From Planctomycetota bacterium (GTDB taxonomy: Bacteria; Planctomycetota; Phycisphaerae; Phycisphaerales; SM1A02), in NCBI GenBank assembly GCA_014381555.1, contig JACNLO010000061.1, positions 1 through 41,216 on the forward strand: 41,216 nt of DNA, in the 5' to 3' direction. The notes under the pieces are model-generated. The model was given only the letters and a program-made list of their open reading frames with translations, was not told the DNA's origin and searched no databases. This document shows positions 552 to 39,311 of the stretch, in pieces (position 1 is the first letter of the stretch; every line of letters begins with the position of its first letter). The translations under genes were made by a program, and so were the position numbers.

Positions 552-1400
552 TTAAAATTCTTTTGAACGATGTTGCATTTGAGCTTTAAGACGCGCAAGA
601 ATCGATGAATGCATTTGGCTCACACGCGACTCAGACAAATCAAGAGTCAAACCGATTTCTTTCATTGTCATTTCTTCATAGTAATACAAGACTACAATTA
701 ATCGCTCTGCACGAGTAAGACCTTTTGTAAGAAGGAACTGTAAATCTTGACGTTGCAACTCCAAAACTGGGTTTTCTTGGCGCTTATCCTTAACAACATC
801 AATTTCCTGAACTTCTTTTGATGAATCTGAGTCATATGCCTTTCGGTTCAGGGAGGTCATCAAGACTGGACGTGAATCTCGTTCAATTTTTTCATACTCA
901 TCAGTGTCAACTTCGAGTTGACCAATAATTTGATCATCCGTTGCTTTTTCGCCAGTTTCCATTTCTATTGATTTACGAGCACGGTCAACTTTTGTACTTC
1001 GCGAACGAACAAGTCTAGGAACCCAGTCCATAGCTCGGAGCTCATCATAAATTGCCCCACGAATTCTTTGTGTGCAATATGTTTCAAACTTAAAACCACG
1101 AGTTAAATCGTATGCATCGATTGCTTGCATAAGACCAAACAGTCCTGCAGAATATAAATCATCTACATCGACTTCTGATGGCAGCTTTTGATGAACACGT
1201 TCAGCGGTATATCTTACTAACTGAAGATAGTGTTCCATTAACACGTTGCGGATTTCAAGAGTCTTCTCATTTTTGTATGAAATCCATACATCAAGAAGAA
1301 TCATCTCTCCACTTGGGGTTTCGACGGTGATATCAAGCCCTCTTGGAATATTTCCTTCAAGGTCTGATTTCGTTAATTTCTGTACTATTGCACTTGGCAT
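552..1400 (-). CDS. fliA: RNA polymerase sigma factor, FliA/WhiG (sigma-28) family
   Basis: This sigma-70 family factor is expected to direct core RNA polymerase to late flagellar promoters. Region 2 is visible as VDVDDLYSAGLFGLMQAID with FKFETYCTQRIRGAIYDELR. Region 3 includes DWVPRLVRSR. Region 4 is LTRAERLIVVLYYYEEMTMK followed by the helix-turn-helix EIGLTLDLSESRVSQ. The DWVPR and RGAIYDELR blocks are typical of the FliA/WhiG group. The frame is open back to 1541. I chose the ATG at 1400 (282 residues, beginning MPSAIVQK) because AAGGAG lies 7-8 bases before it and no such site precedes the 1541 start. A region of about 35 residues precedes region 2. The gene is downstream of flhF on the same strand but separated by 364 bases, so it probably also has its own promoter. 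WhiG-like use in another programme cannot be excluded. Confidence 0.88.
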   Translation of the reverse strand: MPSAIVQKLTKSDLEGNIPRGLDITVETPSGEMILLDVWISYKNEKTLEIRNVLMEHYLQLVRYTAERVHQKLPSEVDVDDLYSAGLFGLMQAIDAYDLTRGFKFETYCTQRIRGAIYDELRAMDWVPRLVRSRSTKVDRARKSIEMETGEKATDDQIIGQLEVDTDEYEKIERDSRPVLMTSLNRKAYDSDSSKEVQEIDVVKDKRQENPVLELQRQDLQFLLTKGLTRAERLIVVLYYYEEMTMKEIGLTLDLSESRVSQMHSSILARLKAQMQHRSKEF

Positions 1401-1764
1401 TGGTCTACTCCTTGACCCTGTCACCAAACTGGTACGAACGTACGCACCACTTTCATTATCATGCCGATCCTTGGCATCGATGCGGTGACTATACCGCGCA
1501 TCGGTGTGGTTAGACAATGAGGTTTGAGGGTTGTTTACCATGAATTTTGTAAATTGTCACAATTGTGACACCCTATTGAAAGTCATATTCAAGTTGGTTC
1601 TATTCAAGGAAACACAAAAACATGAGTTGATACTCGTACACTGTTCCGTATTCAGAAAGCACAATAGTCCGAGAATACCCTTGTAAATGGATTCCATTTG
1701 CATGATATCTACACATCAAGGTCAAATCGACCGTGCATATACAAATGTTGTAACATGAATAACC
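1401..1764. other. 364-base gap between flhF and fliA
   Basis: I see no convincing gene here. The 47 codons in frame upstream of the chosen fliA start (to 1541) are open but have no ribosome binding site and no recognisable domain. Other content is a perfect 16-base palindrome at 1555-1570, listed separately, and a 7-base-arm hairpin ATAACCC-TAAC-GGGTTAT at 1759-1776 that overlaps the flhF stop. That hairpin has no T-run, so it is at best a weak 3' end. In many bacteria flhG sits between flhF and fliA. No flhG remnant is visible. Confidence 0.6.
1555..1570. promoter_or_regulatory. Perfect 16-base palindrome upstream of fliA, candidate operator
   Basis: TGTCACAATTGTGACA reads identically on both strands. 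It lies about 155 bases upstream of the preferred fliA start and just outside the alternative start at 1541. The TGTCA/TGACA half sites look like a site for a dimeric regulator. It is the inverse of the CRP type TGTGA-N6-TCACA and I cannot assign a regulator. A -10-like element for fliA nearby is not clear. Confidence 0.5.
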
Positions 1765-2886
1765 CTAACGGGTTATCGGTCTATCTTGTGCCCAAAGTGA
1801 TTCCACCAACTTGGAAGGTCTCGCAAGATCGAAGTGCATCGAAATATCCTGCCCATCGGTAAACCAACTCAACGGCTTATTCAACGCGCAGAGCGTAGAG
1901 ATCATTTCTCCGAGCATTTCGGTCTCATCAAGTTTTGAGACAATGACACGATCATATCCTGTGCTAGCAAACCCATCTGCAGCTTTTTTGGTAGCAGTCC
2001 TCGACGATGCTGCACTTAACACAAGGTGTGTCTCAGTCGGATTCGCAACTTTTAGTATGTTGGACGTCTCTTGAATTCGATCACCGTCAATTGCACTTCT
2101 TCCAGCTGTGTCGATAAGAATAATATCTGCCGACTGCGATGCCTCCATTGCTTCTTCCATCTGCTCTACCGTCCCGGCAACTTCCATTTTTGATTCAAAC
2201 AGTTTTGCGTACTGACCTAATTGATCGACTGCTGCAACTCTATATGTGTCTGCAGTAATAAATGCAACACTTCTTCCCTGCTGCAACCAATACTTTGTTG
2301 CGAGTTTCGCAATAGTTGTTGTTTTCCCAACACCTGTTGGTCCAACTAACGCAATAACCGTAGGCTCCATTGAATATCTGTTTGATGGAGGTACCACTTC
2401 TGGTAAACGTCGAATGAGCTCATTCATCATATTTTTCTGTATTTCTTCATTGCTCATCGAGGAGTTGATATCGAGAGTTTGAACAATGTCAGTTGCAAGA
2501 GAAGAGTCTATTCCCTTCTTCACCAAGGTACGTTGCGCCTTTGCAAGAATAGGAGAAAGACGGCCTGCAGTTTCTTGATCTAGAAACTCGGTCACTAGAT
2601 TTCTAATCTCTGCAACACCTAATTCAATCCTTTTGGCTGCAGTTTGTTTTTGTGGCTTATGTTCTTGTTGCTGAGATGATTTCTTCACCTGAGCTAGTTG
2701 ATTCTGTTCACTATGTTGCGATGTCTTCTTCGCCGGCTGCGATGGCTTCTTCGCCGGTTGCGATGGCTTCTCCGCCGGTTGCGATGGACTCTCTTGTTCT
2801 ATTTGCTGAGTCGGATTTTTTTCTTTTTGCAGTAGCAACCATTTTGCGTACCTGATGGTTTTCTTGTTAATTTTTCTAGTAATCAT
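1765..2886 (-). CDS. flhF: Flagellar SRP-type GTPase FlhF
   Basis: FlhF is a signal-recognition-particle-family GTPase that helps set flagellar position and number at the cell pole. The C-terminal NG domain is complete: P-loop ALVGPTGVGKTTTIAKLA, DTYRVAAVDQLGQYAKL, the G3 motif LIDTAGR and the G4-type motif VSKLDET. It is preceded by a Q/K/P/S-rich linker with near-identical KPSQPA units (see the 21-base repeat). The N-terminus is odd. Only about 24 residues (MITRKINKKTIRYAKWLLLQ...) precede the linker, in place of the usual B-domain block with an RTYRA..M.EAL..V...LG.DAVIL pattern. The start is firm enough: flhA ends 11 bases upstream, with a TAAGGT site before the ATG. It is last in the tight fliO-flhA run and no flhG follows it. 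Length is 373 residues. Confidence 0.9.
   Translation of the reverse strand: MITRKINKKTIRYAKWLLLQKEKNPTQQIEQESPSQPAEKPSQPAKKPSQPAKKTSQHSEQNQLAQVKKSSQQQEHKPQKQTAAKRIELGVAEIRNLVTEFLDQETAGRLSPILAKAQRTLVKKGIDSSLATDIVQTLDINSSMSNEEIQKNMMNELIRRLPEVVPPSNRYSMEPTVIALVGPTGVGKTTTIAKLATKYWLQQGRSVAFITADTYRVAAVDQLGQYAKLFESKMEVAGTVEQMEEAMEASQSADIILIDTAGRSAIDGDRIQETSNILKVANPTETHLVLSAASSRTATKKAADGFASTGYDRVIVSKLDETEMLGEMISTLCALNKPLSWFTDGQDISMHFDLARPSKLVESLWAQDRPITR
2716..2787 (-). repeat. 21-base tandem repeat inside flhF
   Basis: Three full copies and one partial copy of a 21-base unit (forward strand TGCGATGGCTTCTTCGCCGG plus one base) lie in the linker region of flhF. Copies start at 2716, 2737, 2758 and 2779 and differ by only one or two bases. 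They encode the repeated KPSQPA(K/E) linker. The unit is a multiple of three, so copy-number change would keep the frame. Confidence 0.9.
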
Positions 2887-2897
2887 ATTTGTATACC

Positions 2898-4967
2898 TTA
2901 GCTAATTGTTCTTGACTCAAGTCTCATTGTTTCAACTTTTCCCACAACTTGCAAGTCCACCTCTTGAACTATTTCGTCCCTGCTCAAAACAACAATCTCA
3001 TCTTTTGTGTTTGCTACTCTAGTTTTTAATTGTCTTCTGGATTTATTTGATGAGATTACAACAATCGGTAAGCCCTTTTCTACAAGTGGAATGGCTGCAT
3101 GATGAAGTGCTGCAGAGAGAATATCGTTTGATATCAAATCCCTCGATATTGCCTCATCAACATCTTCAGGCAGTTCAAGGCATCGAATAACTTGACGTCC
3201 AGCATCGCCGTTGCTCGAGATAGATGCACATATTTGCCTTTTCAGAGCAACTCGAACCTGCTCAACAGATTCCTCAAATGATTCTGTCGATGAATCTGAA
3301 GCCGCTTCAATAATCGTAGAGAGATCCATAATTGGCACATGCTCAGAAAGTAATGCCTTTAAGATGTGGTGTAATCTAGAGATAGAAACTCTGGACCCAA
3401 TCTCTTCTTCTACTAATCTTGGAGAAGTTGCACTAAGTGAATCTATCATCAATGCTACGTCTTCACGACATAATAACTCTTTCGCATGCGTATTCACGAC
3501 TGCAGAAAGATGTGTCATGATTACCGAAACAGGGCCTACTGCTTGTACAAATAGGTCCCCTAGCCCACTGAGAACTTCATTAGTCACCCAAACAGCAGAC
3601 ATCCCAAATGCTGGTTCTCGCTCTGGAATACCCTCGATTTCGCTACCCATTTCAGCTTGAGGAATAATCATCCTTCGATCGTTATACACAACGCCTTCCC
3701 CCACCACTCCACCCTTAAGCAAGATTCTGTACGAATTCTGATCCAAACTCAAATTATCCTTAATCCGAATCGATGGAATCATAAGACCCAAATCTTGTGA
3801 AACTGTCAATCGTAACGATGCCATTTTTTCAACGATATTGTCTTCTCGTTGAGCAGAAGCGAGAGGCAATAATGCTTGGCCGAATTCAAGTGTAAGAACA
3901 GATTCTTGAATAGATGTTGGTGGCGGTTCTTCGACTTCCAACTCAGGCATTCCTTCATCTTGGGTATCTTGACGTTGAAAACTGATCCAAGATAACCCTC
4001 CGAGAACTGCTGCCAATACTAAGAGTGGCAATGTGGGCAATGGTGTGATAGATAGAAGAACCAAGAATCCGGCAACGAGACCGAGGGCTGCTGGTTGTGA
4101 AACCAATTGATTTGGTATTTCCATCCCAAGCGGAGTTCGGTTACCAGCTCTTGCAACGATAAGACCTGCAGCAATCGCAATAAGAAAAGATGGAACCTGG
4201 CTTGCTAGTCCATCTCCAATTGTAAGACGAGTAAAGAGATCTGCAGACTCAAGTACAGACCATCCCTTTACAGCAACCCCGACGGTCAATCCCCCAACAA
4301 TGTTAATTGCAATGATGACAAGACCAGCAATTGCATCCCCACGCACAAATTTACTCGCTCCATCCATGGCGCCGTAAAAATCGGCTTCTCTCAAAACGTT
4401 ATCTCGCCGGTTTGTCGCCTGTTTCTCGTTTATTAGCCCCGTTGACAAATCGGCATCAATAGCCATCTGTCGACCTGGCATTGCATCGAGTGTAAACCTT
4501 GCTGCAACTTCACTCATTCTAGTTGCGCCTTTTGTTACAACAACAAATTGCACGATGACGAGAATTAAGAAAATAATTCCACCTACGATTATGCTTGAAC
4601 CAGCAACAAATGATCCAAATGCTTCAATAACATGCCCTGCCATATCACCTCCTTGCTCTGGAGTCGTTGCATCAGCCGAAAGTATGAGCCGAGTTGAAGC
4701 AACATTCAAAACAAGGCGGCCAAGCGTTGTGATGAGAAGAAGGGCTGGAAAGACACTGAAGTCCAAAGGACTTTTTGTGTACACGGTGGTAAGTAAAATG
4801 ACAGCTGCGATGGATATATTTGCGGCAAGAAAGAAATCTAAAATTCCAGGTGGGAGAGGCACAACCAAGATGGTTACAAGCCCCAATAATAATGAAGGTA
4901 CGAGCAAGTGCTTTTTCTGCACGAATGTACTCAGTATCGAGTCAAATTGGTTCATTCTTATATTCAT
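2898..4967 (-). CDS. flhA: Flagellar export gate protein FlhA
   Basis: FlhA is the large ring-forming subunit of the flagellar type III export gate, using proton motive force and binding export chaperones. The N-terminal half has about eight membrane segments, and the family (FHIPEP) signature region is clear: VFPALLLITTLGRLVLNVAS, then ARFTLDAMPGRQMAIDADL and LREADFYGAMDGASKFVRGD. The C-terminal cytoplasmic half (from about residue 350) includes ERQ-like and R-rich docking regions ending near residue 689, close to the usual length of about 690. The frame extends to 5021. The ATG at 4967 (MNIRMNQFDS) overlaps the flhB stop in an ATGA, so that start is preferred. It has no obvious defects, in contrast to its partner FlhB. 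Confidence 0.95.
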   Translation of the reverse strand: MNIRMNQFDSILSTFVQKKHLLVPSLLLGLVTILVVPLPPGILDFFLAANISIAAVILLTTVYTKSPLDFSVFPALLLITTLGRLVLNVASTRLILSADATTPEQGGDMAGHVIEAFGSFVAGSSIIVGGIIFLILVIVQFVVVTKGATRMSEVAARFTLDAMPGRQMAIDADLSTGLINEKQATNRRDNVLREADFYGAMDGASKFVRGDAIAGLVIIAINIVGGLTVGVAVKGWSVLESADLFTRLTIGDGLASQVPSFLIAIAAGLIVARAGNRTPLGMEIPNQLVSQPAALGLVAGFLVLLSITPLPTLPLLVLAAVLGGLSWISFQRQDTQDEGMPELEVEEPPPTSIQESVLTLEFGQALLPLASAQREDNIVEKMASLRLTVSQDLGLMIPSIRIKDNLSLDQNSYRILLKGGVVGEGVVYNDRRMIIPQAEMGSEIEGIPEREPAFGMSAVWVTNEVLSGLGDLFVQAVGPVSVIMTHLSAVVNTHAKELLCREDVALMIDSLSATSPRLVEEEIGSRVSISRLHHILKALLSEHVPIMDLSTIIEAASDSSTESFEESVEQVRVALKRQICASISSNGDAGRQVIRCLELPEDVDEAISRDLISNDILSAALHHAAIPLVEKGLPIVVISSNKSRRQLKTRVANTKDEIVVLSRDEIVQEVDLQVVGKVETMRLESRTIS

Positions 4968-5980
4968 CGTGCATCTTTCTTCTTCGTAATTAATAACGTC
5001 GCTATTTCGCCATGTAAACACGATGGAATGCCAAGCCCAACATCACTTCCCTGCATAATTTTTTGAGCAAGAACAGCATTTTCAATTATCAAAACTCCGT
5101 CTTTCTTGAGTTTGTCAAGTTCTTGAAGATATGAATCGCCGCTCAAAATATCAAGAACTATTGGGGCAGTCATTGTGGAAGCATTCCAACGAAGAGTAAT
5201 TGCAAACGAACTGCCAGAAATAATTAGGGAAGGGCAAGTAGTTCTTGCAGTCTTATTAGAAATCCACCTCGCATAGTTTCTCGCTTCGACACCCCGACCG
5301 CCATGCTCTCGCTGTTCCTCTATAACTTCTTGCCTCGTCATAAGTAAGTCTGTTTTCCAAGCGTGTCGTTGCCAACAATAATCAAAAAGTCCCAAAAGTA
5401 ATAAAACTCCCAATGTCGCAAACACAACTTGTGAACCAATCGACACAACGGTATCAATACTGTCGACAAGTTGTTCACTCGAACCCAACGAGAACAACTG
5501 CTCTTTATGTTGAAATATAACTAGCAAGCCAGCTGCCGAGGCAAGAATGAGTTTGCTCAATGAAAACAGAAGGTTCATGTTTCCTCTAGACCCAAACAGT
5601 GTAGAAAATCCAAAACTTAATCGAGAAAAACTTGGAGTTACGGCTTTTGATGAAAATATACTCCCAACTTGAATAAACCCCGAAAATATTGCAGCAATAA
5701 AAAACACTGTAAAAGGAATCGCTAGAACTTTAACAAGTTGCCATCCCATGTCTGTAAAAGCTCCTGTCGAGTTTTCTACTCGATACGAAAGATTTTCTAT
5801 AAGAAACTGTTTACTCACTTCAAGCCCTTTAGGCACTAAAAAAACAGCAACTCCAACTGCAACAAAGAGGAACAAGACAGAAGACAAGTCGTTCGATCTT
5901 GCGACTTGCCCGTCCTCTCGAGCTTTTTTCAAACGACGAGCACTAGCAGGTAAAGTTGCATCTTGTCGATTCTGTCTCAC
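4964..5980 (-). CDS. flhB: Flagellar export protein FlhB lacking the NPTH autocleavage motif
   Basis: FlhB is the export-gate subunit that switches substrate class from rod/hook to filament, through self-cleavage between Asn and Pro of NPTH. The N-terminal signature LPASARRLKKAREDGQVARS and four membrane segments are present, followed by the linker MTRQEVIEEQREH. At the cleavage position the protein reads LIISGSSFAITLRWN, so NPTH is replaced by SGSS (bases 5207-5218). The downstream autonomous segment is recognisable in outline (APIVLDI, GVLIIENAVLAQKI, GIPSCLHGEIATLLI) but diverged. The frame reaches 6001. The GTG at 5980 is preferred because it overlaps the fliR stop as GTGA and has AGGGAG six bases ahead, giving 338 residues. 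There is no sign of a frameshift. Either this FlhB works uncleaved or it is a specialised copy. Confidence 0.88.
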   Translation of the reverse strand: MRQNRQDATLPASARRLKKAREDGQVARSNDLSSVLFLFVAVGVAVFLVPKGLEVSKQFLIENLSYRVENSTGAFTDMGWQLVKVLAIPFTVFFIAAIFSGFIQVGSIFSSKAVTPSFSRLSFGFSTLFGSRGNMNLLFSLSKLILASAAGLLVIFQHKEQLFSLGSSEQLVDSIDTVVSIGSQVVFATLGVLLLLGLFDYCWQRHAWKTDLLMTRQEVIEEQREHGGRGVEARNYARWISNKTARTTCPSLIISGSSFAITLRWNASTMTAPIVLDILSGDSYLQELDKLKKDGVLIIENAVLAQKIMQGSDVGLGIPSCLHGEIATLLITKKKDAR

Positions 5981-6747
5981 TGCACACTCCCTGTCGCCCA
6001 CTGGGAAACCGAACCCACCATGTCCGGCATCATGGTTGACATAAATGATCCAATAATTGATAGACCCGCTATGAGAACAATCATTCCAACAAGTATTCGT
6101 ACTGGTAGCCCAATACTAAAAATATTCAACTGAGGCATTGATCTTGCAATCATGGCAAGTGCCGCTGTTTGAATCATCAATATTGCAATTAAAGGGAGTG
6201 CCACACGAAGAGCAAACTCAAAAACTGTATCGAGTAATCCAGTCAAAGTTACAACTATCGAATCTCCAGCAAGAGTTGCAACTGGTAGATGGCCAAAACT
6301 TCCAACAACAGCCATGTATGTTTGTTCAATACCACCTATAACTACAAATCCAACTATTGCGAACATCATAAAAGCTCTTCCGACCTCATCAGATTCTCCA
6401 CCAGTAGCTGGGTCGAGCATTGAAGGCAAAGCGATACTCATTTGTTGTCCCATCAAGGAACCGCCAATTTGCATTGCTATCAAAGGCATGCTCATCAAAA
6501 AGCCAATGGTTGCACCAATAGCAAATTCACCAACAAGAATGACGAGCAATCCCATCATTCCAATTTCGGAAATGGGAACATCTGCGGTCATTGTCCAAGC
6601 TGAAAATCCAAGGACAAGAATAATTGCTGCTCTGACTATTTTTGGAATTGCTGGAGAACCAAAAACAGGAGCAGCTATTGAAAGCCCTGCGACTCTGGCG
6701 AGAACTGCTAAAAATGGCAACATCAAAATGTAAGAAAAACTTGTCAT
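5977..6747 (-). CDS. fliR: Flagellar export gate protein FliR
   Basis: FliR combines with FliP and FliQ into the helical export gate in the basal-body membrane. The protein is almost wholly hydrophobic, with six or so membrane segments. Recognisable family stretches are LARVAGLSIAAPVFGSPAIP near the N-terminus, GEFAIGATIGFLMSMPLIAM, GGSLMGQQMSIALPSMLDP and the late MPQLNIFSIGLPVRILVG. The open frame begins at 6801. The ATG at 6747 (MTSFSYILMLPF) overlaps the fliQ stop as ATGA, so I use it, giving 256 residues, which is normal for the family. It overlaps flhB by four bases. Confidence 0.93.
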   Translation of the reverse strand: MTSFSYILMLPFLAVLARVAGLSIAAPVFGSPAIPKIVRAAIILVLGFSAWTMTADVPISEIGMMGLLVILVGEFAIGATIGFLMSMPLIAMQIGGSLMGQQMSIALPSMLDPATGGESDEVGRAFMMFAIVGFVVIGGIEQTYMAVVGSFGHLPVATLAGDSIVVTLTGLLDTVFEFALRVALPLIAILMIQTAALAMIARSMPQLNIFSIGLPVRILVGMIVLIAGLSIIGSFMSTMMPDMVGSVSQWATGSVQ

Positions 6748-6998
6748 GTTGTTCCTGAAAACATTCCCTGTGCAAACTGGAGAATTTCTGAGAGCATCCA
6801 ACCCATCAACATCAATGTCGCAATCATCATTGCAAGTAAGCGCGGAACGAGACTTAACGTCTGCTCCTGAACCTGAGTCATGGCTTGCAATATACTCATG
6901 AGAATACTGACAGCGAGCCCAATGAGTAACACTGGTGCTGCAACAACGAGTACAACTGAAAGTGCAGAGCTAAGAGAATCTACAAGTAATTCTGTCAT
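6744..6998 (-). CDS. fliQ: Flagellar export gate protein FliQ
   Basis: FliQ is the small two-helix subunit of the FliPQR gate. At 84 residues it has the usual length. Two membrane segments (about 14-38 and 53-75) flank the conserved cytoplasmic turn LQAMTQVQEQTLSLVPRL, which closely matches the family pattern. It starts in an ATGA overlap with fliP and ends in an ATGA overlap with fliR, so translational coupling is likely. Confidence 0.95.
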   Translation of the reverse strand: MTELLVDSLSSALSVVLVVAAPVLLIGLAVSILMSILQAMTQVQEQTLSLVPRLLAMMIATLMLMGWMLSEILQFAQGMFSGTT

Positions 6999-7810
6999 GC
7001 GAAACCCGCCGTTTTCAGAAACACCACAACTTGTTCAGAAACTGCAACGCTTTGAAGTAAATTTCCAGCGACCAGATACCATCCATCAACAAGTACGAAC
7101 ATCAATATTTTTAATGGCAAAGAAATGAGTACCGGCGGCAACATCAACATCCCCATCGAAACAAGCAAACTAGACACCAACAAATCAATAACCATAAATG
7201 GCAAGTACACTCTAAATCCAATAAGAAATGCTATTTTTAACTCACTTAAAACATATGCTGGTAGCAAGCTCAGGGTATCAACATCTTCTCTTGTTAAATC
7301 TTCTGGCTTTGAAGTGTCAACACCTCGATAGTTCAACATCATATATACCGTCGACCAATTGCCCGCGGTCTCAATCTGCGAAAACATAAACTCTCGCAAT
7401 GGCAGTTTCGTTCGCTCCCATGCAACTTCTGAACTGGTAATTTCGCCATCAATCAAGGGCTTAATGCCATCTTCGTACATCCGCTCCATTGTTGGAGCCA
7501 TGACTACAACGGAGAGTAACAAGCTAAGGCCAATCAATATTTGGGTTGGAGGAATTATCGGCGAGCCAAGTGCTTGCCTAAGCAATGCTAGAACAACAAT
7601 AAATCTCGTGAAACATGTGCACAGAACTAATATGGATGGGACAAGGGCGAGAACTGTAAAAAAGAGCAAAATATTGACTGTAGAACCTAACGACCCATCG
7701 CCCGCTGGCAACAATGCACCCGCTTGTTCAAGAGCTTCGACTGGATTATTTGGAATTCCAGGAGCACCAAGGATTGATTGAGAAAGATGTCTAAGAATCG
7801 TAAGACTCAT
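6995..7810 (-). CDS. fliP: Flagellar export gate protein FliP
   Basis: FliP forms the pentameric core of the export gate. The family hallmarks are all visible: ILLFFTVLALVPSILVLCTC, FTRFIVVLALLRQALGSP, PPTQILIGLSLLLS, and in the C-terminal half LPAYVLSELKIAFLIGFRVY and LVSSLLVSMGMLMLPPVLIS. Four membrane segments are expected, with a periplasmic domain between about residues 110 and 195. An N-terminal stretch of about 45 residues before the first segment may include a signal sequence or anchor. Length is 271 residues, normal for the family. It overlaps fliO upstream and fliQ downstream by four bases each. Confidence 0.96.
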   Translation of the reverse strand: MSLTILRHLSQSILGAPGIPNNPVEALEQAGALLPAGDGSLGSTVNILLFFTVLALVPSILVLCTCFTRFIVVLALLRQALGSPIIPPTQILIGLSLLLSVVVMAPTMERMYEDGIKPLIDGEITSSEVAWERTKLPLREFMFSQIETAGNWSTVYMMLNYRGVDTSKPEDLTREDVDTLSLLPAYVLSELKIAFLIGFRVYLPFMVIDLLVSSLLVSMGMLMLPPVLISLPLKILMFVLVDGWYLVAGNLLQSVAVSEQVVVFLKTAGFA

Positions 7811-8208
7811 TCTTGCTGGCTTTCTTGAAGATCGACCTCACACAAAGGAGTCAGATTCCCCTTCACTTGATGAAGAAGGACCCCTTTATCTTTCACTCGA
7901 ACAAGGACCAATGCCTGCTTGGCACCTAGGGCCTTTCGCTCGATTATTTCAATTGAAGTTCCTTGCCCCATAACTGTCCCAAGAGAGCCACTACCGCGCT
8001 TTATGACCCAACGAATGGCGATTATCAAGCAAACGATGATTGCCAATGCAATAAGAACTCGGAATGTCCCAAGCCCCATAGAGAGAACCTCTTGGGCATT
8101 TGCTGGAAGTGGCAACGGCGTTGATTCTGAGGCATAGGAAGTACGCACAGACAGCACCGAGATAACACAACTACAACATTGGAGAGCGACTGAGCGCATC
8201 TTGGCCAT
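7807..8208 (-). CDS. fliO: Flagellar biosynthesis protein FliO
   Basis: FliO is a small membrane protein that assists assembly of the FliP ring. It starts with a probable signal sequence (MAKMRSVALQCCSCVISVLS). A membrane segment follows at about residues 50-70 (FRVLIALAIIVCLIIAIRWV), then a basic stretch and a short cytoplasmic beta-rich domain with IEIIERKALGAKQALVLVRV, which fits the FliO pattern of a hydrophobic helix followed by L..K..L.LV.V. The frame begins at 8232. I prefer the ATG at 8208 because AGGAAG lies six bases upstream, but 8232 is possible. It is the first gene of the flagellar operon and overlaps fliP by ATGA. Sequence conservation in this family is low, so part of the assignment rests on position. 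Confidence 0.85.
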   Translation of the reverse strand: MAKMRSVALQCCSCVISVLSVRTSYASESTPLPLPANAQEVLSMGLGTFRVLIALAIIVCLIIAIRWVIKRGSGSLGTVMGQGTSIEIIERKALGAKQALVLVRVKDKGVLLHQVKGNLTPLCEVDLQESQQE

Positions 8209-8250
8209 CCTTGGCTTCCTATCTTGGGGCATCCTTGCCCGCTCTGAGAA

Positions 8251-12990: not shown

Positions 12991-15750
12991 TTACCAAACT
13001 GCGATGACGGCCAGAAGGTCCGTCACATCCACTTGTCCGTCTCCATTAATGTCCTCAGGACAACCATCGCAAGATCCCCAAGAACCAACAACTGCAAGCA
13101 GGTCGCTCACATCAATAACTCCATCGCCATTGACATCCTCGGGTATGGTTGAAACTTCGTTCATCGTTCCGGGCGTAGGTGCATTGAATGATTGCCAATC
13201 ATCTCCACCATCTGGTAAACGGCCATAAGAAACATCCGTTTCTTGTGCGCCAAAGACGATTGAATCAATAATGGTTGAGCCATCTGATGCAAAGAGCCCA
13301 ATTTCCTCACCGCTAGCGCCAAGTTTAAACGTGGTATGGGTTGGTCCCTGCTCAGCATCGTTGTCAGCCCAGACGAGTAAATAGCCATAAGCATCAATAA
13401 TGACGCCTTCTTGGAAGACCCACATGCCTGGCTCGCCAAGGTCATCCGTCATAAACAAACCAGTCATATCAATTGCTTTTTCATTCGGATTATAAATTTC
13501 AATCCAATCTTCAAATGCACCTGGATCATCTGGATCTTCAATCGTTGTTTCATTATCCGCCATAAATTCGTTAATAAACAAGACTGGCACTTCAGGGGCA
13601 TCTGCTTGGTTTGCACTTTCTGGCGTTGGCGTAGACATGAAAGTCCAACTCTCGCCACCATCAGGAATGCGACCATAAGAAATATCTGTTGACTGCGCTG
13701 TATAAGTCAACGAATCAACTATTGTCACTCCATCCGCAGCAATTAAACCAATATCTTCACCACCAGTTCCAAGTTTAAAATCAGCATGGTTCGAGCCCTG
13801 CTCTGCATCTTTATCTGCCCAAATCAAAAGGTAACTACCTGCGTCAATAGAAACGCCGTCAGGAATTTGCCAGATTATTAAATCTGTTAAATCATCTGTC
13901 ATAAACATTCCGGATAAATCGATGGATTCATCACTGTTATTAAAGAGCTCAATCCAATCATCGAACTCTCCCGCTTCGTCGGCAATAGTCGACTCATTGT
14001 CAGCCATAAATTCGTTGATAAATAAGATTCCGTCATAATCTGGCAAGGCAATTTCGTTTTCGTAATTTGGAGTTGCATCTTGAACAGCCCAATCGGTAGA
14101 CAATTCGCCTTGACGACCATAAGACTTATCTGCTTGCAACGCTGGGTACGTAACGCTATCTATCACAGTTGAACCATCAGACAAGATCAACTCCCCACCT
14201 TTTGGATTCAAAGTAAATGGAGCGTGTTCGCTGCCCTGTTTTGGCTGGCCGTCTATCCATAGTGTTGGGAATTCCCCGTCTTGAACCCAACGGGATGGCA
14301 AATGCCACTTCATTAAATCACCCGCATCATCGCTCAAATAATACGCCTGCATTGGAAGACGCCCTGGACCTAAATTGTAAATCTCAACCCATGGGTCATA
14401 TTCACTATATTCATCATACATCGTTGATGTGTTTACCGACATCATTTCATTTATTTGCATATCAGTTTCTTCTGCAAGAGCATCGAGCTGCGAGCGCAAA
14501 AAGTTATGTCTGTTAGAAGCAAAACTTTGAATGCCGTACGCTGAGTCCTGACCAGAACCGTAATTGTTATACAAATTAGTTTCAAACGCATAGTCGCTGT
14601 ATTGTTTTTGAGTATCTGCATAGACATCATCGCGAATCAAATCAGCCAGTTGCGTAATTCTCGGTTCCATTTCATTTCCGTGGAAACCATTTCTTATCAT
14701 CTCCGCCATTATTCTCAAATAACGTCTTTGATATTTTTCGACTGCCAAAAGCCGTTGCATCATTGGGCGTGGGGCATTTGGTGACCACATCAAATCAAGT
14801 TCTTCTAAATTCGTTTGCGGTGGAATCTGAAACCGAAATCTTCCAAACGTTTCGTTTAAATCCCAGTGGATGTGTGTAAACTTGCCTGTGTCATCTCTGT
14901 CGTAAACATAATAGTTGTGTGCGGAGCCAGTATACGAATCCAAATGAGAAAACAATATGTTTAACGCCAATGTATGCAAAGCACCATCAACATCAAACAA
15001 CGGCTCGAGCGCATCTGGCAATTCTTCAAGAGTTGAATTATTCAACGCGTCAATAAAAGCAATAAGTTGTGAATAATCGTTCGCTGTTTCATTTGTTTTC
15101 AGTTGATACCGTTCATAATATGGTTCTGGTTCTGACCCTAGCCACTCAAGTGTTGAGCCAAAATCACCCTGAGGTCCTGATGCGTCATCACTCGCTTGCC
15201 CCTTAAACAAATTCCCATCTTCTCCCTCGCCAAATCGAGATTGCACAAACGTCTTGTCAACTTCTTCAACTGCTATATACAAACCCCAATAGACATCGTT
15301 CACGTACACTCGGGTATGAACTGCTCGTATTTCTGGAACCCATTGCGACGCGAACTCCAAGAACATTTTTTCTCGCATAAATGATGGGTCTTTAAATCCG
15401 TTGTTTAACGCAAGCCCAGACAACCCCAGAAATTGTGCATCTGGGTTGTCTTCATCGTATTCATCAAAATCAATTTTGAATGATTTCTTTTGTGTTGGAA
15501 TACCAAATGAAGAATTGCCTTTAAAACGAATGCCGACTGTGGCTAGTTCTTGATCACCCCATACGAAAGACGCGGGGAACATCGGGTCGTCGGGATCGTT
15601 CGCATGCGAATAATAAAGAGTGTTGTACCAGTTAGCGTCATCGATGGTTATACGAACTTCCTGTACAACTGAATCATCAAAAAACAAGTCGGAGTCATCA
15701 GCAACTGCAGAACATACAATTAACAGTGAAAGTAGTAAGCGTTCAATCAT
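12991..15750 (-). CDS. CotH-family protein with three lamin-tail domains and dockerin-like tag
   Basis: A signal peptide (MIERLLLSLLIVCSAVA, then DDSD) starts this 919-residue exported protein. Residues of about 25-430 form a CotH-type domain, seen in VRITIDDANWYN, GIRFKGNSSFG, KKSFKIDFDEYD, AVHTRVYVNDVYWGLYIAVE, HIHWDLNETFGRF and the NLF..KG region. CotH proteins are secreted atypical kinases in spore-formers, and the role here is unknown. Three lamin-tail-like beta modules follow, the first diverged (about 435-570). The next two are close copies, each with LFINEFMADNE, DDWIEL-type, LLIWAD and SYGR.PDGG blocks. The last 50 residues are the two-repeat tag EDVNGDGVIDVSDLLAVVG...CDGCPEDINGDGQVDV. 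It starts 16 bases after the YggU-family gene, with an AAAGGT-like site. Confidence 0.88.
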   Translation of the reverse strand: MIERLLLSLLIVCSAVADDSDLFFDDSVVQEVRITIDDANWYNTLYYSHANDPDDPMFPASFVWGDQELATVGIRFKGNSSFGIPTQKKSFKIDFDEYDEDNPDAQFLGLSGLALNNGFKDPSFMREKMFLEFASQWVPEIRAVHTRVYVNDVYWGLYIAVEEVDKTFVQSRFGEGEDGNLFKGQASDDASGPQGDFGSTLEWLGSEPEPYYERYQLKTNETANDYSQLIAFIDALNNSTLEELPDALEPLFDVDGALHTLALNILFSHLDSYTGSAHNYYVYDRDDTGKFTHIHWDLNETFGRFRFQIPPQTNLEELDLMWSPNAPRPMMQRLLAVEKYQRRYLRIMAEMIRNGFHGNEMEPRITQLADLIRDDVYADTQKQYSDYAFETNLYNNYGSGQDSAYGIQSFASNRHNFLRSQLDALAEETDMQINEMMSVNTSTMYDEYSEYDPWVEIYNLGPGRLPMQAYYLSDDAGDLMKWHLPSRWVQDGEFPTLWIDGQPKQGSEHAPFTLNPKGGELILSDGSTVIDSVTYPALQADKSYGRQGELSTDWAVQDATPNYENEIALPDYDGILFINEFMADNESTIADEAGEFDDWIELFNNSDESIDLSGMFMTDDLTDLIIWQIPDGVSIDAGSYLLIWADKDAEQGSNHADFKLGTGGEDIGLIAADGVTIVDSLTYTAQSTDISYGRIPDGGESWTFMSTPTPESANQADAPEVPVLFINEFMADNETTIEDPDDPGAFEDWIEIYNPNEKAIDMTGLFMTDDLGEPGMWVFQEGVIIDAYGYLLVWADNDAEQGPTHTTFKLGASGEEIGLFASDGSTIIDSIVFGAQETDVSYGRLPDGGDDWQSFNAPTPGTMNEVSTIPEDVNGDGVIDVSDLLAVVGSWGSCDGCPEDINGDGQVDVTDLLAVIAVW

Positions 15751-37637: not shown

Positions 37638-39311
37638 ATGCTTCATTCTAAAATACCTTTGGCGGTTATAACCGCAATTGGATACTTTTTTGCAACACAA
37701 TCGAGTTTTGGCATTGATCCACAGCCCAGAGCTGGGGACCCAATACTTTCTTTAAGTGATTCGCAACTCTCTCGGTTTGAAACAGGAAAAATTTCCTTCA
37801 ATGAGGACTTAACCGTTGAAGGCGGCCTTGGACCAATTTTTAATCAAACAAGTTGCGGAAGTTGCCACAACAATCCTATCGGTGGAGCTGGAAACCAAAC
37901 GGTCACACGTTTTGGTTTCATCGGGAAAAAGGGAGGGTTCGATCCACTTGCTGAACTTGGTGGATCTCTTCAACAAGCCGAAGCAATTAGCGATGAATGC
38001 GCTGAAGTTGTTCCGCCTGAAGCAAATGTGACTTCTTTGCGCGTAACAAACAGTGCACTTGCTTTTGGTCTAGTTGAAGCAATAAGTGACGAAGATCTTC
38101 TAGCAAATCGAGATTCTCAACCAGAAGCACAACGCGGTGAAGCACACATGGTTTCAAACTTTGAAGACGAAACCGATCCACTCCATGTTGGTCGGTTTGG
38201 ATGGAAGGCACAAGTTGCTTCTGTCTTAACTTTTTCTGCAGATGCAGCGCAAAACGAAATGGGACTGAGTAATCGCTTTTTACCGTTTGATAATGCTCCC
38301 AATGGCGACGAAGATTTACTAGCAAACTGTGATACGGTTGCAGACCCAGAAGATTCTCCTGATGCCGATGGTTTTGAATTTATCGATCGTGTTACAGACT
38401 TTCAACGATTCCTTGCTCCCCCACCACAAACTCCTCGGTTTGGTATGCAAGGTGAAACTATTTTTATGACTATTGGCTGCGCAGTATGCCATACGCCAAC
38501 CTTTACCACAGGAAATGACTCAGAAACAGAACCTATTCTACGAAATGTTTCCATTCATCCATACGGCGATTTTTTATTGCACGACATGGGACTCGCGGGC
38601 GATGGCATCGTCCAAGGCGATGCTAGCGGGCAACAATTAAAGACTCCCCCGCTCTGGGGCGTCTCGTACCGAGACCCGCTCTGGCACGATGGACGTTTTT
38701 CTGCAGGCACATTTGAATCACGCATCCGCGGAGCAATCGCGGAACATGGCGTATTCGGATCGCAAGGGATACCTGCAGCAGAAGCGTTTGCATCTGCATC
38801 AGACCAAGACCAAGATGCACTAATTCGTTTTCTTGGATCACTCGGTCGCGCTGAATTTGACAGCGACGCAGACAACGATGTTGAACTCGATGACTTTCAT
38901 GGATACAGCGACACCATAGGTTTCCGCAGTTGTTTTGGAACGAATCCAACTCCAGATGACCCTTGTGCCATTCACGATGTTGATCAAGATGGTGATGTAG
39001 ACCTTGATGATTTTGATGTGTTCTTATTAGCATTTGATGATGAACCTGCCGATTGCAATGGCAATGGAGTTGTTGATATGCTAGATATATTGCTCGGAGA
39101 AGCAGACGCTAACAACGACGGCATCATTGACGAATGCCAAACTTGCATGGGTGATGTTAATGGTGACAACACACTTGGCGTGAACGACCTCCTTGCAATT
39201 ATTGACGCTTGGGGAGCATGTACTGATTGCCCTGCTGACATAGATGGCGATGGTGCTGTAAACGTAACTGATCTTTTATACATTGTTGGAAACTGGGGAC
39301 CTTGCACATAA
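37638..39311 (+). CDS. DUF1111 di-heme cytochrome-c-like protein with dockerin-like tag
   Basis: A signal sequence (MLHSKIPLAVITAIGYFFAT) starts this 557-residue exported protein. Two heme c sites are visible: CGSCH at 73-77 in TSCGSCHNNPIGGAG, and CAVCH at 281-285. The surrounding pattern (GGLGPIFNQTSC, RFGWKAQVASVLTFSADAAQ, LLHDMGLAGDGIVQGDASGQ, KTPPLWGVSYRDPLWHDGRF) is that of DUF1111 di-heme proteins related to cytochrome c peroxidases and MauG. The C-terminal 150 residues contain several calcium-loop units and end in the tag GDVNGDNTLGVNDLLAIIDA, WGACTDCPADIDGDGAVNV. Periplasmic or surface electron transfer is probable, and the substrate is unknown. AAGGAGAG lies upstream. The stop TAA shares its last base with the next ATG (TAATG). 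Confidence 0.9.
   Translation: MLHSKIPLAVITAIGYFFATQSSFGIDPQPRAGDPILSLSDSQLSRFETGKISFNEDLTVEGGLGPIFNQTSCGSCHNNPIGGAGNQTVTRFGFIGKKGGFDPLAELGGSLQQAEAISDECAEVVPPEANVTSLRVTNSALAFGLVEAISDEDLLANRDSQPEAQRGEAHMVSNFEDETDPLHVGRFGWKAQVASVLTFSADAAQNEMGLSNRFLPFDNAPNGDEDLLANCDTVADPEDSPDADGFEFIDRVTDFQRFLAPPPQTPRFGMQGETIFMTIGCAVCHTPTFTTGNDSETEPILRNVSIHPYGDFLLHDMGLAGDGIVQGDASGQQLKTPPLWGVSYRDPLWHDGRFSAGTFESRIRGAIAEHGVFGSQGIPAAEAFASASDQDQDALIRFLGSLGRAEFDSDADNDVELDDFHGYSDTIGFRSCFGTNPTPDDPCAIHDVDQDGDVDLDDFDVFLLAFDDEPADCNGNGVVDMLDILLGEADANNDGIIDECQTCMGDVNGDNTLGVNDLLAIIDAWGACTDCPADIDGDGAVNVTDLLYIVGNWGPCT

Follow-up and report, generated by a model that had tools for sequence, protein, structure and literature searches.

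An FlhB without the NPTH cleavage motif in a flagellar export gate operon of a Phycisphaerales genus with no detectable flagellin

The gate operon and its FlhB

The window analysed here is a stretch of 41,216 bp (positions 1 to 41,216 of contig JACNLO010000061.1) from a planctomycete of the lineage Phycisphaerales; SM1A02 (assembly GCA_014381555.1), and carries on its minus strand an operon with the gene order fliO-fliP-fliQ-fliR-flhB-flhA-flhF-sigma. FliP, FliQ, FliR, FlhA and FlhB, the flagellar export gate set, are all encoded in this operon, and the FlhB has no NPTH motif at its self-cleavage site. Upstream of flhB lie fliO (7807..8232; PF04347, 1e-08), fliP (6995..7810; PF00813, 3.6e-66), fliQ (6744..6998; PF01313, 2.1e-22) and fliR (PF01311, 3.1e-47), the last given as the open reading frame (ORF) at 5977..6801, within which the true start probably lies. 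Downstream is flhA (2898..4967; PF00771, 2.6e-201), which begins with ATG 4967 in a frame open to 5021 and has an intact FHIPEP core region. A sequence-only reading of the window had described the other gate genes as normal, and the profile matches, the identities given below and the FHIPEP core agree with it.

The flhB gene (4964..5980, minus strand; PF01312, 3.8e-51) lies in an ORF that is open from 6001 to 4964 and has 345 codons counted from the upstream GTG. Alignment with genus-mates makes the GTG at 5980, which matches the starts of relatives, the likelier start, in keeping with the good start claimed earlier. The PF01312 match extends over residues 14-337 and profile positions 2-332 of 335, and scores 174.7 bits against a cut-off of 24.4. 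Where the NPTH cleavage motif would stand, the 345-residue ORF has SGSS at residues 262-265 (5207..5218, minus strand), and the codons 5218-5207 sit in the NPTH column of both the MAFFT and the hidden Markov model (HMM) alignments, exactly where the sequence-only reading had put the substitution. A search for a second flhB, which had been suggested as a check, returned no other PF01312 match in the same genome (2.0 Mb in 91 contigs, 97.7% complete) at E up to 10, with four candidates scored, and no separate homologue of the FlhB C-terminal domain was found there at that threshold.

A structural model of this FlhB (40 sequences; mean predicted local distance difference test score, pLDDT, 84.3) places strands 259-262 and 266-271 on either side of a tight turn that replaces NPTH, with a mean pLDDT of 93 for residues 261-270. 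The modelled C-terminal domain matches the solved structures of FlhB_C, YscU_C and EscU_C in a Foldseek search, including those of cleavage-dead mutants. Canonical FlhB and SctU proteins share family and fold with it, and differ in that Asn-Pro-Thr-His is replaced here by a glycine-centred turn.

Published work cited below by PMC number is drawn on from excerpts. According to the excerpt of PMC13344023, the pocket of FlhB for early substrates consists of A286, P287, A341 and L344, and PDB chain 36hu_K1, with N269-P270 and A286-P287, fits this numbering. Profile alignment to 36hu_K1 pairs A279 and P280 of the FlhB studied here (5162..5167, minus strand) with A286 and P287, and A334 to L337 (4991..5002, minus strand) with A341 to L344, the ends of which are the pocket residues A341 and L344. 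P280, A334 and L337 are invariant in 7/7 FlhBs of the genus, and position 279 is A, S or F.

Motif loss and missing flagellar genes

The genus is represented by 13 genomes, of which seven bear FlhB, and the motif is absent from all seven. The motif column reads SGSS, VGNK, VGNK, VGDT, VGKA, VGKT and VGKT, so that glycine replaces the motif proline in every one of them (xGxx). Six of these seven genomes are separately deposited marine metagenome-assembled genomes (MAGs). A sequencing error at SGSS was considered and ruled out, as the motif is missing in seven genus genomes from different deposits.

In other genera of the order, all 54 FlhBs read carry NPEH (32), NPTH (19) or NPDH (3); these are high-scoring, non-random matches from the 325 FlhB-bearing genomes in a 400-genome sample, and low scorers are under-represented among them. 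The alignment of related Phycisphaerae proposed in the sequence-only reading thus gives absence in 7/7 within the genus and presence in 54/54 of these high-scoring FlhBs from elsewhere in the order. Read apart from these 54, the FlhBs of genomes G016 (GPGP) and G015 (DASG) are also motif-less, and in G036 the linker is the last part of the FlhB ORF, where the roughly 65 bases left before the FlhA match are too few for a C-terminal domain. Mapped on a tree of 50 FlhA rows, loss of the motif takes four changes, three of them demanded by branches with good support, and G016 groups with the flagellated G019 (support 99). A test of a single motif-less clade gave p 0.08 and so did not reject it, and the tree is weakened by its long branches (G033, G036, G236).

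Further afield, 74 FlhBs were picked by similarity to those of the genus; 70 carry NPTH, NPEH or NPDH, two NPTE, one DPTE and one NPRR. Altered motifs were seen in a Pirellulaceae MAG (DPTE), in Pirellula and a Planctomycetales MAG (NPTE) and in Lamprobacter (NPRR), at loci L260, L221, L282 and L280. Genome G060 has two FlhBs, the first with NPTH and the second (L043, 6896-7978) with APS- in its place; the second copy has FliR-like and FliO-like ORFs and a FliMN_C match in its vicinity, the genome has a normal flagellar set in addition, and the locus is perhaps a second type III system. No earlier report of a naturally NPTH-less FlhB was found in the titles and abstract openings of one open-licence literature collection.

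Six flagellar families (FliK domain, flagellin, Flg_bbr_C, FliI, FliMN_C and Flg_bb_rod) were searched for with profiles in 27 genomes, comprising the 13 of the genus and 14 relatives. All six were below cut-off in the genome of the window and in its 12 genus-mates, and an injectisome (SctN-type) ATPase was likewise below cut-off in the genome of the window with TIGR01026, which covers FliI and YscN. The same eight of the 27 genomes exceed the cut-off for each of the six families, and all eight have an FlhB with NPTH or NPEH. FlhA was found in 24 of the 27 genomes (13/13 in the genus, six only in part) and FliF in 19 (8/13 in the genus), and nine of the 13 genus genomes are 93-98% complete. 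Since the six families are missing throughout the genus and present in the same eight relatives, the lineage very probably has no flagellum and hence, most probably, no hook-to-filament switch remaining. The sequence-only reading had proposed a flagellum that switches without cleavage or by way of another protein, which is at odds with the absence of all six families from the 13 genomes.

The tie between motif and filament was followed in 80 further genomes of the family. A normal-scoring FlhB (E < 1e-70) is present in 55 of them, and flagellin was matched in 52 of these, in 51 of them over cut-off; the three without a match are G236, G275 and G383. In genera g25 and g45, flagellin was found in 0/21 genomes with a very low-scoring FlhB, among which only that of G036, without its C-terminal domain, was read, and in the family genomes without FlhB the count was 0/4. 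When only genomes with the motif read and flagellin searched are counted, flagellin is present in 27/28 genomes with NPxH, the exception being G236, versus 0/10 of those that are motif-less or lack the C-terminal domain (Fisher 2e-8, kinship not corrected).

Conservation of the gate and its reduction in relatives

The ratio of nonsynonymous to synonymous substitution (dN/dS), calculated by the Nei-Gojobori method for pairs with dS up to 1.3, was 0.05-0.11 for FliP, 0.12-0.24 for FliQ, 0.01-0.09 for FliR, 0.06-0.08 for FlhA, 0.11-0.16 for FlhB (0.22 in a more diverged pair), 0.21-0.33 for FliO and 0.04-0.05 for FtsH. Identity of the window proteins to those of genus-mates (five or six genomes for each gene, depending on the contigs) is 77-88% for FliP, on a par with FtsH (73-83%), followed by FliQ (64-70%), FliR (56-71%), FlhA (60-66%), FlhF (50-59%), FliO (40-56%) and FlhB (37-46%), the lowest in the operon. 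In none of the seven genomes is a gate ORF interrupted within the sequence that its contigs cover. As judged by the ratios, the gate genes are under purifying selection and not decaying, and the earlier argument against general decay is borne out. Relaxed selection had also been proposed, and the cleavage site itself is no longer kept. The segment after the motif had been called diverged, which is true of FlhB overall, but several residues of the C-terminal domain are invariant.

FliP has a pore loop like that of flagellated relatives. A change in its methionine loop tied to motif loss, which two flagellated FliPs had suggested, was dropped after a wider count, in which 35 readable NPxH genomes gave 24 MLM and 11 MMM, and nine motif-less genomes gave seven MLM and two MFM; the loop could not be read at a further 18 NPxH loci or at the second copy of G060, which were left out of the count.

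Downstream of flhA, the window encodes an FlhF-like GTPase (1765..2886, minus strand; PF00448, 3.2e-43), named from its operon place and its similarity to relatives, and a sigma factor (552..1541, minus strand; Sigma70 regions 2 and 4) that is FliA-like by operon place. An FlhG-like ORF was seen by eye between flhF and the sigma gene in G011, G002 and G005, and none is there in the window. In the six genus-mates without a PF01312 match, one ORF joins FlhA_C (profile from about 225) to FlhF and adjoins the same neighbours, including the sigma factor, as far as contigs reach. The start of FliO is detectable by BLAST in three of these six fusion ORFs. Five are whole, with 815-850 codons (L181, L182, L183, L184 and L185), and the sixth, in G007 (L186), lies at a contig end and has one in-frame TAA in the matched stretch. 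For the fusion, the pair G008/G004 gives a dN/dS of 0.15 and the pair G007/G010, which has a dS of 1.8, one of 0.08.

Reduced sets of another kind were found in two of the motif-less genomes. G016 has no rod, hook, filament, FliI or FliM/N match over cut-off and retains FliE, a FliF with a fused FliG C-terminal domain, a pair of a kinase and a sigma54 regulator, the gate, FlhF, an FlhG-like ATPase and the sigma factor. G015 retains FliF, FliG and the gate, as well as ORFs that resemble, by eye, the kinase/regulator pair of G016. In the genome of the window, FliF is encoded on contig C63, has 391 residues and matches only positions 76-172 of YscJ_FliF; its cluster is conserved in seven FliF-bearing genus-mates. 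The short FliF cluster (L170, 9410-13868) also includes a lipoprotein-like protein and two others without a Pfam match, and adjoins a diadenylate cyclase (DAC) gene. Elsewhere in the window, the ORFs at 39-479, 12991-15750 and 37638-39311 end in repeats of the type DVNGDGxVDVxDLLAVxxxWG, which we take to resemble dockerin-type repeats.

Possible roles of the retained gate

The explanation that fits best, and that we consider reasonably probable, is that the lineage lost its flagellum and that the window encodes its flagellar export gate, with the gate kept by selection, the cleavage site dispensable, and export through FliPQR possibly continuing. Rod, hook, filament, the hook ruler FliK, FliM/N and the ATPase FliI would have been lost while the gate genes were retained; with these parts gone the switch would have had no role, and the FlhB self-cleavage site would have been lost in consequence. 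FlhB would remain uncut and in one piece. By analogy with Salmonella, where an uncleavable FlhB remains in the early rod/hook mode (excerpts of PMC3708937 and PMC13344023), the gate of the genus, with its C-terminal domain attached, would be locked in an early rod/hook-type mode. Loss of the C-terminal domain permits late secretion (excerpt of PMC13344023), and by the same analogy G036, which has no such domain, would differ from the early-locked genus. The gate may still move some non-flagellar protein through FliPQR, with the shortened FliF, and export would run on the proton gradient, because FliI was not found and type III export in Salmonella is possible without ATPase activity (excerpt of PMC4230889). 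The best reading is thus a repurposed one-mode export gate or membrane platform in which the cleavage switch is no longer needed.

That the gate is at present an active one-mode exporter with a putative cargo is conceivable, if somewhat doubtful. More tentative is the picture of a minimal type III machine in marine Phycisphaerales, made up of FliPQR-FlhB-FlhA and a short FliF with no ATPase, C-ring, rod or filament, in which a one-mode uncleavable FlhB would recruit non-flagellar cargo by its pocket and which would be reduced in sister species to a single FlhA_C-FlhF membrane protein. Several points weigh against continued export and against the underlying loss of the flagellum. The six fusion genomes without an FlhB match show that the channel is dispensable in close relatives. 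All genomes are drafts, and apart from FlhA, FlhB and FliF the genus-wide search covered the six families, with FliG, FliE, FliH, MotA/B and the P- and L-ring proteins outside it. G236 has kept NPTH with no flagellin match, and G383 and G275 have a normal-scoring FlhB, its motif not read, and no flagellin. Sub-threshold matches also occur, to FliMN_C in the genome of the window (E 0.04, 15 bits) and to the FliK domain in ORFs of 728-751 residues in nine genus-mates (E 0.008-0.11).

The draft state of the genomes and the sub-threshold matches could be taken to mean that a working flagellum is present, that profile searches miss its rod, hook and filament proteins because of divergence or poor assembly, and that it switches without FlhB cleavage. 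This is highly improbable, since the six families are missing jointly from 13/13 genomes in which FlhA was found 13 times, FliF eight and FlhB seven, nine of them being nearly complete. The FliK-domain matches, which lie below cut-off, are absent from the genome of the window and occur also in genus-mates without FlhB, and were taken as chance and not as a real FliK. It is also very unlikely that the gate is a functionless vestige in slow decay. FlhB does show the lowest conservation in the operon, the gate has been deleted or has collapsed in relatives, and G036 has lost the FlhB C-terminal domain, but over the stretches covered by contigs all seven genomes have uninterrupted gate ORFs, and this already disfavours decay.

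A more serious alternative, though still the less probable side of the question, is that the gate serves as a membrane platform for polarity or gene regulation, in which gate, FliF, FlhF and sigma factor would form a landmark or a sensed complex and FlhA_C and FlhF would be the parts that matter. In polar flagellates with FlhF and FlhG, the complex of MS ring, rotor and gate is a checkpoint sensed by a two-component system (excerpt of PMC7064773). The set kept in G016 corresponds to the early parts of that complex, together with a kinase/regulator pair, and where FlhB is missing, in six genus-mates, a single ORF beside the sigma gene retains FlhA_C and FlhF. However, the rod, hook and filament genes controlled by the checkpoint were not found here, the FliF of the genus is short, and no kinase/regulator pair lies beside FliF in the genome of the window, the only place searched there. 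A mere platform would also need neither a channel protein FliP as conserved as FtsH nor an invariant FlhB pocket. As far as sequence goes, FliP conservation and the pocket favour export and the fusion favours a platform; exporter and platform may be successive stages.

In the proposed nanotube core complex, gate proteins form membrane nanotubes. The gene set of that complex is present in the window, whose gate resembles it in comprising core gate proteins without a flagellum. The same likeness holds for the type III systems of Myxococcales, which are thought to secrete across the inner membrane only (as cited in PMC9380563, seen in part). It differs from both in that its gene order is that of the flagellar locus in the same family and that no FliI/YscN-type ATPase was over cut-off. 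Closest in kind is the non-flagellated Lysobacter enzymogenes OH11, which keeps FlhA, FlhB, FliP, FliQ and FliR, with evidence for a working exporter and a role in twitching (excerpt of PMC7277350). A gate kept after loss of the flagellum is therefore already known as a kind. Lysobacter, however, keeps and needs FliI, which was not over cut-off in the genome of the window.

Going by the literature listings looked through, three things are new: the coupling of a lost flagellum to a lost FlhB cleavage site, an export gate for which no FliI can be detected, and the gene that fuses FlhA_C to FlhF. Within the order, the motif is present in 27/27 flagellin-bearing genomes read and absent in 10 without flagellin, which amounts to a natural test of the purpose of FlhB cleavage. 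As the motif tracks flagellin while pore and pocket stay fixed, evolution appears to separate the switching role of FlhB from its role in export. The finding points to a putative export gate in marine planctomycetes that is free of a flagellum and apparently free of an ATPase, and the fusion gene may reveal the part of the gate that is the last to matter.

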